From Sharpea azabuensis DSM 18934 (GTDB lineage Bacteria; Bacillota_I; Bacilli_A; Erysipelotrichales; Coprobacillaceae), in contig NZ_KL370867.1 of NCBI RefSeq assembly GCF_000702165.1, positions 21,444 to 61,666 on the forward strand: a stretch of DNA of 40,223 bases. Reading direction: 5' to 3'. The notes under the pieces are model-generated. The model had not been told where the DNA came from. It saw only the letters and a list, made by a program, of their open reading frames with translations, and searched no databases. The translations under genes were made by a program, and so were the position numbers. This document shows positions 28,332 to 37,664 of this stretch, one piece after another. The stretch's first letter is position 1; the number at the start of each line of letters is the position of its first letter.

Positions 28332-29804
<1,473 letters not shown>

Positions 29805-29856: not shown

Positions 29857-30005
29857 TATAAGAAATTCTATTTTCCATGAGGCATACTCTACCACCATCT
29901 CATATATAAGCGCTCCCATTTTGTGAACCTCTTGACACATACATTAGGCTATGTTAGCTTATACAAAGTCATTTATGCCAATAATTGGATTGGCGACCCA
30001 CAAGC

Positions 30006-30058
30006 GACCGGAATCGCGATCAATGACATTCAAAACAAGGAGGTTCCGGTCTTTTTTT
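30006..30058 (+). terminator. Attenuator terminator in the ygjV leader
   Basis: GACCGGAA (30006-30013) and TTCCGGTC (30044-30051) form a perfect 8-bp stem with a 30-base loop, followed by seven T (30052-30058), all upstream of the start codon. It would end transcription before the gene unless the upstream fold prevents it. Confidence 0.7.
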
Positions 30059-30069
30059 ATACCGCAACA

Positions 30070-30084
30070 CTCCTAAAAAAGGAG
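30070..30084 (+). other. Hairpin sequestering the ygjV ribosome binding site
   Basis: CTCCT (30070-30074) pairs with AGGAG (30080-30084), the Shine-Dalgarno sequence of the gene at 30091, around an A5 loop. CTCCT can alternatively pair with AGGAG at 30038-30042 next to the terminator arm, which would free the binding site. Confidence 0.55.
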
Positions 30085-30090
30085 ATTTTT

Positions 30091-30609
30091 ATGAATATTA
30101 TTGTATTAGCGAATATCATATCACTTATTGGCGCAATCATTATGGTACTGATTGGCTTTGTAAAGGATAATAAGAAAGTTCTTGCAGGCCAGTGCGTTCA
30201 GTTTACCTTAATGGGTGTTGCCAACTTTATTCTAGGCGCAATCACCGGCTCTATTTCCAATGTCTTAAGTATTATCAGAAATGTCTATTCTATCAACAGA
30301 CCCATGAGTTTAGCTGTCAAAACTGCTCTTTCTGGACTACAGATTGGCTTATCGCTCTATGCCGGAATTGATGGACTTATTGGCTGGCTCCCAATTATCT
30401 CTAATACCATCTTTACATTTACATGTGACAGCAAGGACCAGGCATTCTTTAAATTTTCTGTCATTATTACAGGGGCAATGTGGATCTTCTATGATTTCTA
30501 TTACATGAACTTCACAAGTGCCACTTTCGATATTCTTGGCGTCATCACCAATGCTGCTACCTTAGCATTGATTCAACGAGGAAGAAAAGCAACACCGACT
30601 CTTTCCTAA
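30091..30609 (+). CDS. YgjV-like inner membrane protein, copy 1
   Basis: A 172-residue protein with about five or six hydrophobic segments, matching the Imp-YgjV family of unknown function; the IGWLPIISNTIFTF segment near 110 is characteristic. The frame is open to 29923, but the upstream part lies in the structured leader. ATG 30091 follows AGGAGA at 30080-30085, so it is the start. About half of its aligned residues match the next gene, so the pair arose by duplication. The leader with attenuator and buried binding site implies expression tied to an unknown signal. Transport or sensing of a small molecule is possible but unproven. Confidence 0.85.
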   Translation: MNIIVLANIISLIGAIIMVLIGFVKDNKKVLAGQCVQFTLMGVANFILGAITGSISNVLSIIRNVYSINRPMSLAVKTALSGLQIGLSLYAGIDGLIGWLPIISNTIFTFTCDSKDQAFFKFSVIITGAMWIFYDFYYMNFTSATFDILGVITNAATLALIQRGRKATPTLS

Positions 30610-30679: not shown

Positions 30680-31177
30680 ATGAATATAACTTTTATTGCC
30701 AATATGATTTCTTTGCTTGGGGCAATTGTTATGGTTGGTATTGGCTTAATCAAAGAAAATAAACATGTCTTAGAAGTGCAATGCTTACAATTCACTTTAA
30801 TGGGTATTGCCAACTTCATGCTTAAGGCAACATCGGGCGGGATTTCCAATATCGTTGGTATTTTAAGAAATCTATATTCGCTTAAGAAGCCCATGGAAAC
30901 ACCTGTGAAAATTGGCTTTATTGTTTTACAAGTTGCCATTAGTCTTCTTGCCGGAATGAATGGTCTTATTGGTTGGCTTCCTATTATCGCAACTGTTATT
31001 TTCACAATCTTTGTTGACACGAAAAATCCCTATGTCATGAAAGGTGTGATTGTCTTTACAGTTGGATTGTGGTTTATCTATGATATGCATTTTCATAACT
31101 ACACTGCCTCACTATTTGATATCATGACAATTGTTTCTAATACTTTTACAGCCATCAAAATGTACTTCTCTCGCTAG
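30680..31177 (+). CDS. YgjV-like inner membrane protein, copy 2
   Basis: A 165-residue paralogue of the preceding gene: both open with MNI, carry an LGAI or IGAI stretch, VQFTLMG or LQFTLMG, a GGISN or GSISN segment and GLIGWLPII, and have the same hydrophobic profile. Function unknown. It has GAGGAG nine bases before the ATG and its own promoter, and so can be expressed when copy 1 is attenuated. It is convergent with comEC; the two stop regions nearly meet, and the terminator of this gene covers the last codons of comEC. Confidence 0.85.
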   Translation: MNITFIANMISLLGAIVMVGIGLIKENKHVLEVQCLQFTLMGIANFMLKATSGGISNIVGILRNLYSLKKPMETPVKIGFIVLQVAISLLAGMNGLIGWLPIIATVIFTIFVDTKNPYVMKGVIVFTVGLWFIYDMHFHNYTASLFDIMTIVSNTFTAIKMYFSR

Positions 31178-37255: not shown

Positions 37256-37564
37256 TTAAGCGTTAATAGCTTTAACTGTTAACTTTGTGAAAGGCTGTCT
37301 ATGACCCTGTTTCTTGTGATAATGCTTCTTTGGTTCATATTTATAAACAGTAACTTTCTTTTCCTTACCCTGAGCTACAACATCAGCTGTAACTGTAGCA
37401 CCTTCAACATAAGGAGCACCAATCTTAGTGCTTTCGCCACCTACAAATAAAACCTTATCGAAAGTATATTCAGTACCTTCTTCAACATCTAACTTTTCAA
37501 CGAAAATAGTGTCACCGGCTTCAACTTTTAACTGTTTTCCACCTGTTTCAATAACTGCGTACAT
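37256..37564 (-). CDS. rplU: 50S ribosomal protein L21
   Basis: A 102-residue large-subunit protein. [25 protein letters not shown] at the start and [17 protein letters not shown]-like [19 protein letters not shown] near the end are diagnostic. GGAGGTA precedes the start. It heads rplU-prp-rpmA and is preceded by a structured 100-base leader that probably binds L21 for autoregulation. Confidence 0.98.
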
Positions 37565-37664
37565 TCAAGTACCTCCTTTTTGTATTCTTAGACTCGCCAA
37601 CCGAGGCAGTACATACGTACATTTAATACCTTTTATGTGCGGTTGTAGCTAGAGGTCTACAACA
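37565..37664 (-). promoter_or_regulatory. L21 ribosomal protein leader
   Basis: The 100-base untranslated leader of rplU has a 5' hairpin TTGTAG/CTACAA followed by a longer domain closed by AACCG (37640-37644 on the reverse strand) and CGGTT (37599-37603), with an inner GTAC-GTAT-GTAC hairpin. Position and overall form match the L21 leader known from Bacillota, where L21 is thought to repress its own operon. I could not align it to the family model. Confidence 0.65.

Follow-up and report, generated by a model that had tools for sequence, protein, structure and literature searches.

Which signal governs the expression of ygjV in Sharpea azabuensis, and what could this signal say about the encoded protein? 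The window considered here is the whole analysed stretch of 40,223 nucleotides of S. azabuensis DSM 18934, in which ygjV starts with ATG at 30091, ends at 30609 and encodes a protein of 172 amino acids (Imp-YgjV, PF10688). To our knowledge no function has been assigned to the YgjV/PF10688 family, whose members range from E. coli to gut Firmicutes. A divergent beta-glucosidase-type gene begins at 29789, leaving a gap of ca. 300 bp in front of ygjV. In the literature that was searched, no paper linked ygjV to a riboswitch. For this gap, an initial annotation had proposed a ligand-sensing leader of no known class with control of both transcription and translation. The three-way junction, the overlapping terminator and the paired ribosome binding site (RBS) which it had described are all present in the sequence (Table 1).

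The leader and its conservation

The promoter comprises a perfect TTGACA, a 17-nt spacer and TAGCTT (29955-29960) with a TG extension, and is conserved in Sharpea porci, the one other species of the genus in the comparison. Its position predicts a transcription start near 29967, just 5' of P1 and hence not downstream of 29973, the placement that the initial annotation had set against its own proposal.

Table 1. Positions of the promoter, aptamer, expression platform and genes in the window (pocket residues in B. subtilis xpt numbering)
Feature	Position	Strand	Description
-35 box TTGACA	29932-29937	+	from sequence; kept in S. porci
Extended -10 TGTTAGCTT	29952-29960	+	from sequence; S. porci equivalent TGCTAGCTT
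P1 5' strand GUCAUU	29968-29973	+	pairs with 30022-30027; nascent folding, covariation
J1/2 UAU	29974-29976	+	U22, A23, U24; alignment to purine models
P2 5' strand	29977-29982	+	pairs with 29989-29994; both sides changed in 4/6 pairs
L2 AAUUGG	29983-29988	+	GG 29987-29988 = G37 G38, kissing with L3
P2 3' strand	29989-29994	+	covariation
J2/3 GACCCACAA	29995-30003	+	1 nt shorter than purine GUUUCUAC; alignment; C29998 = C50, C29999 = position 51, A30000 = A52, C30001 = C53
P3 hairpin GCGA-CCGGAA-UCGC	30004-30017	+	arms 30004-30007/30014-30017; both sides changed in 3/4 pairs
L3 CCGGAA	30008-30013	+	CC 30008-30009 = C60 C61
J3/1 GAUC	30018-30021	+	C30021 = C74; alignment to purine models
P1 3' strand AAUGAC	30022-30027	+	A30022 (position 75) pairs with U29973 (position 21)
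Intrinsic terminator	30006-30058	+	arms 30006-30013 (GACCGGAA)/30044-30051 (TTCCGGTC); T7/U7 30052-30058
Read-through stem	30038-30074	+	AGGAG 30038-30042 with CTCCT 30070-30074
RBS-sequestering hairpin CTCCT/AGGAG	30070-30084	+	arms 30070-30074/30080-30084; S. porci version CTCCTTTAGAAGAGGAG
ygjV	30091-30609	+	172 aa; predicted 7 TM helices, PnuC/SWEET-like
Tandem second ygjV paralogue	30680-31177	+	165 aa; Imp-YgjV, PF10688; without element copy

The stability of the single 68-mer was dropped as evidence, being at chance level among dinucleotide shuffles: 98 of 1000 were equally stable (about 10%) and 41 formed a three-way junction. The whole leader of 160 nt exceeded the stability of all 200 shuffles (z -3.1). 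Comparison, unlike single-sequence folding, lifts the junction above chance. The 68 nt from 29965 to 30032 are unchanged between the window and S. porci (69 of 70 bases for 29962-30031), whereas identity drops to 75% in the spacer upstream, to 81-85% over the terminator and RBS stretches and to 83% within ygjV. Since the mean identity of the window to S. porci is 88% and identical runs of similar length are also found elsewhere in it, what counts is how the aptamer differs from its immediate flanks. A 271-base identical run (37344-37614) common to the window and S. porci overlaps a known element, the ribosomal protein L21 leader (37580-37654, minus strand; RF00559, 60.8 bits).

A covariance model (R1) based on the Sharpea leader, which is identical in both species, was used to search 316 genomes of the order. 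Apart from Sharpea, the loci L064 (3e-9) and L062 (1.8e-6 for its own genome) scored best, and applying R1 to ygjV loci added L061 (3.4e-6 among the ygjV loci searched). L061 and L062 belong to two other genera, and in both the element immediately precedes ygjV, from which it is separated by a terminator and an RBS; the L064 element lies just downstream of a ygjV and no intact gene follows it. In the four distinct homologues 95% of the pair cells are paired and both sides are changed in 8 of the 16 pairs, a level found in 0 of 500 shuffles. P1, P2 and P3 all covary strongly, with P2 and P3 of the homologues differing from Sharpea through compensatory changes, and the AAUnGG sequence in L2 is conserved across all ygjV-type members as well as in purine riboswitches. 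Covariation in these three helices is among the things for which the initial annotation had suggested looking, and the conservation of the aptamer is established.

The ygjV-type element is represented by only four distinct sequences among the matches listed, and no model match was obtained at any further ygjV locus searched, Oscillospiraceae loci among them, so the association between element and ygjV is not family-wide. DNA searches of plasmids and phages gave no homologue. A strict pattern (ATGC..AATNGG..GCGNNCCACA) was found only in both Sharpea genomes among 295 genomes from the phylum, and its 25 viral matches were rejected as incompatible with the structure model. The next-best R1 match, L081, is a coding sequence with cell-wall-binding repeats, and weaker R1 matches lacking J2/3 were discarded. 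At L124 (3638-3698, minus strand; G258:C196) an intact element with C at position 51 (see below) and a terminator is not followed by an intact ygjV. A ygjV is located immediately upstream in the same orientation, an arrangement that resembles the loss of a second, tandem copy.

Relation to the purine riboswitch fold

Searches of the window copy against RF00167, RF01510 and other Rfam families gave no relevant match at gathering or permissive thresholds; RF01510 (2'-dG-I) did not match in the window up to E 10, and RF00167 gave zero matches in both Sharpea genomes. Weak matches in the window to CRISPR, RsaJ and snoRNA families were attributed to chance. The Rfam search suggested earlier is therefore empty for the leader in the window itself, but not for its homologue L061, which Rfam assigns to RF00167 (Purine) with 44.5 bits at a gathering cut-off of 37 bits; L062 scores 31.3 bits.

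When the order was searched with R2, a covariance model of the four ygjV-type elements, five ygjV-type elements scored 77-87 bits, each of them being a training sequence or identical to one, and the rest scored at most 44 bits among the matches listed. Elsewhere in the class, R2 hit at least 13 loci above the Purine cut-off and at least one above the 2dG-I cut-off. A further model (R3) consisted of 17 elements without a Sharpea row, namely L061, L062, L064 and 14 others, mostly recognised purine-clan members. This model, of which the rows had been aligned with R2 and which is therefore mildly circular, scores 58.8 bits in the window (E 2.1e-15), and in 124 kb only the Sharpea copies match. The R3 alignment has double changes in 15 of 16 pairs.

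The leader combines a covarying three-way junction, covariance-model homology and the kissing motifs AUnnGG and CCnnAA, the features by which membership in the purine fold (clan CL00123) was judged. With regard to RF00167 proper, the window stays below the gathering score and lacks both the UUUCUAC J2/3 with U51 and the A21-U75 pair. Because L061 lies above the RF00167 cut-off and a model without Sharpea finds the window, membership of the window aptamer in the purine riboswitch fold is regarded as established with very high confidence. The leader is a variant of this fold and not a new fold; its pocket variant and the gene that it controls were not recognised before. The changed pocket makes the window copy invisible to Rfam.

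The initial annotation had set purine riboswitches aside in favour of a new class, unrelated to this fold. The missing Rfam match of the window itself would fit such a class, which is nevertheless very improbable: it is already contradicted by the RF00167 score of L061 and by the match of the window (2e-15) to a model without Sharpea rows, and the kissing-loop and J2/3 motifs are common with purine riboswitches. Control by attenuation through a leader open reading frame would have two frames at its disposal, one of 33 codons that opens with ATG 29976 and stops at TAA 30075, and another that opens with GTG at 29923 and runs into ygjV. Both are open, but no Shine-Dalgarno sequence precedes 29976, the 68 nt are without even a synonymous change between the species, the frame in S. 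porci does not extend to the same stop, and the helices covary in other genera, all of which makes attenuation of this type extremely improbable. The 33-codon frame (29976-30077) spans both aptamer and terminator and is probably fortuitous.

Binding pocket and ligand

Compared to guanine-I riboswitches (RF00167), the leader has the same three-way junction, the same AUnnGG/CCnnAA kissing loops (the pairs G37-G38/C60-C61 are retained) and likewise an aptamer that overlaps the expression platform. The pocket residues U22 (29974), C50 (29998), A52, C53 and C74 (30021) are shared, and A23 and G46 (29995) are kept as well. The differences in the pocket are a J2/3 that is 1 nt shorter, a C (29999) in front of A52 instead of U51, inversion of the usual A21-U75 pair to U29973-A30022, and U at position 24; the "C51" assignment rests on aligning the invariant C-A-C, the placement of the gap in J2/3 being ambiguous. 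Furthermore, P2 and the loops are shorter, the controlled gene is ygjV, the predicted logic is ON whereas guanine-I switches are usually OFF, and RF00167 misses the window. Position 51 is C in the window, L062 and L064, and L061 has the canonical GUUUCUAC with U51. C74, the pairing partner of the guanine ligand in known members (PMC8872408, PMC9295807), is retained in all four ygjV-type sequences.

In 2'-dG-I and 2'-dG-II riboswitches, a C at position 51 sets the preference for nucleoside over base, and the U51C substitution alone turns the guanine (xpt) aptamer into a dG aptamer (PMC8872408). The two C residues of this nucleoside-sensing pair (51/58 and 74/80/78 in the respective numberings of PMC8872408) are found in the window as C29999 and C30021, given the C-A-C alignment. 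As C51 together with C74 is the signature of known 2'-deoxyguanosine aptamers, a guanine-nucleoside sensor is predicted, and by this analogy guanosine or 2'-deoxyguanosine is somewhat favoured as the ligand. The window matches neither the RF01510 nor the 2'-dG-II model and has another gene and lineage. It also differs from 2'-dG-II in that the G-C pair closing P1 is replaced by U29973-A30022 and in that J3/1 (GAUC) is without the described two-nt UC insertion. Ligand or logic may vary within the set of elements, L061 having U51 and an apparent OFF arrangement.

Another variant of the fold, specific for 8-oxoguanine, is found in Paenibacillaceae before deaminase genes. The text of PMC9295807 counts seven purine-sensing classes on one scaffold and reports the variants xanthine-II, guanine-II and 2'-dG-III from Paenibacillus and a small number of further Firmicutes. 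According to that text, these resemble the window element in being diverged Firmicutes pockets that are predicted to act as ON switches with terminators before atypical genes. Xanthine-II riboswitches carry U51G with insertions in J2/3 and J3/1, and guanine-II riboswitches keep U51 and have a 1-nt J2/3 insertion, whereas the window has C51 and a J2/3 deletion. The 2'-dG-III variant, compared by its text description, occurs only before nucleoside hydrolase genes, unlike the element before ygjV. None of the variants of PMC9295807, as described in its text, matches the window pocket.

Two other ligand assignments on the same fold must be weighed. With the same ON logic, the natural ligand could be free guanine (or hypoxanthine or xanthine), provided that the pocket changes have a neutral or compensatory effect. 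This would agree with the retained C74 and U22, with the canonical GUUUCUAC core of L061 and with the guanine-II riboswitches, which are also predicted ON switches according to PMC9295807. However, base-sensing members have U51, the U51C exchange by itself shifts the xpt aptamer to dG (PMC8872408), and the target is not a salvage or base-permease gene; a free base is thus an unlikely ligand. A ligand new to the family, such as another purine derivative or a modified nucleoside matching an uncommon YgjV substrate, might account for the J2/3 deletion, the inverted 21-75 pair and A24U, which are unlike the variants in the text of PMC9295807 and PMC8872408, and for the association with ygjV, which is new in the literature searched. 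Since C51 and C74 carry a known meaning and no positive pointer leads elsewhere, we consider such a ligand rather improbable. A guanine nucleoside remains the preferred ligand. The variant pocket offers another test of nucleoside versus base discrimination and, as one more natural pocket that the Rfam model misses, illustrates the extent to which the purine fold can drift.

Further elements with altered cores were noted. L160 (1501-1571, minus strand; G463:C23:13218-13288) is Purine-like with 33.3 bits, below the Rfam cut-off; it has the same shortened GUUCCACA J2/3 combined with G at 74 and C at 21, immediately precedes the genes of two small membrane proteins arranged in tandem (220 and 217 aa, the first with a weak DUF6198 match) and is possibly another altered-ligand variant. 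L152 (1501-1568, minus strand; G057:C1:41806-41873) is also purine-like and sub-threshold (34.6 bits); its L3 is shortened, G replaces A before C74, and it lies upstream of a gene for an FAD-dependent dehydrogenase. L195, L196 and L197 (G253, G247 and G157) score above the Purine cut-off and have extra J3/1 bases (UUUUGC/UUUUAC before UAUAAG).

Switching and the role of YgjV

For nascent RNA ending at 30030-30040 the minimum-energy fold is exactly P1-P2-P3, and once 30051 is made the terminator forms instead. In the folding computation, forcing the aptamer at the end of the U-tract costs 6.8 kcal/mol and the terminator is lost; ligand binding and the kissing loops, which are absent from the folding model, could pay this cost. 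The 5' arm of the terminator falls within P3-L3. The bases shared by aptamer and terminator lie in P3-L3 in Sharpea and in the 3' strand of P1 in L062, and imposing the aptamer in silico abolishes the terminator in the window, S. porci and L062. The mutual exclusion of junction and terminator, as claimed initially, is thereby established in silico, and since the two structures exclude each other the leader is very probably an ON switch. Its direction may differ between relatives, given that in L061 (1353-1480), which has the canonical U51 core, the platform before ygjV appears by inspection to be of the OFF type (GGUCA-CUU-UGAUC anti-antiterminator).

Past the terminator, the read-through stem, with extensions GTT 30043-30045/AAC 30066-30068 and CGGT 30047-30050/ACCG 30061-30064 in which the 3' arm of the terminator is engaged, would free the RBS according to the pairing model. 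The proposed re-pairing of the CTCCT blocker with AGGAG 30038-30042 holds up, with a probability of ~0.99 in both Sharpea species when the aptamer is imposed. The same imposition raises the unpaired probability of the RBS from 0.04 to 0.70 in S. porci and leaves it at 0.44 in the window, where there is no computed gain because other pairings compete. These accessibility results render the translational layer less well supported than the transcriptional one; of the dual control originally proposed, the transcriptional part is the firmer and the translational part is probable.

The predicted structure of YgjV (pLDDT 89) has seven helices. Its best structural match is the nicotinamide riboside transporter PnuC (VIA-align Z 10.9, rmsd 5.2, 163 residues; next match 7.4), the Z value being below the ~13 recommended by the tool for helical bundles, and SWEET and SemiSWEET are also among the matches. 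Foldseek and sequence searches with YgjV gave no match supporting PnuC; the resemblance is one of predicted 7-TM fold only, with no sequence similarity detected. The substrate of PnuC, nicotinamide riboside, is a nucleoside. A guanine-nucleoside riboswitch before a PnuC-like protein would be coherent, but the fold match is moderate and does not by itself indicate a function.

Our main reading, to which we assign a probability of about two in three, is that of a purine-fold riboswitch with an altered pocket that acts as an ON switch, has guanosine or 2'-deoxyguanosine as likely ligand and controls a protein that moves a purine nucleoside or derivative. For the ligand, the direction in vivo and the YgjV substrate we infer the following course of events. 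The RNA would begin near 29967 and the nascent chain would fold into P1-P2-P3, with L2 AAUUGG kissing L3 CCGGAA. The ligand would pair with C30021 (C74), touch C29999 (position 51) and lock the junction, and with P3-L3 held the 5' arm of the terminator would be unavailable, allowing polymerase to read through. AGGAG 30038-30042 could then capture CTCCT 30070-30074 and thereby allow the RBS to be free. The resulting ON response is predicted firmly for transcription and as probable for translation. If no ligand is bound, GACCGGAA would leave P3-L3 for the terminator, and residual read-through RNA could hide its RBS. YgjV, once made, would transport a purine nucleoside or derivative across the membrane. 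The narrower proposal of a distinct variant class (short J2/3, C51, inverted 21-75) sensing a guanine nucleoside, with YgjV as a PnuC-like purine nucleoside transporter, is put forward tentatively, at somewhat less than even odds. A ligand read from the ygjV leader would name the likely substrate class of YgjV and provide a testable function for this orphan family. The second ygjV (30680-31177) is 48% identical to the first, and the pair is present in both Sharpea species.
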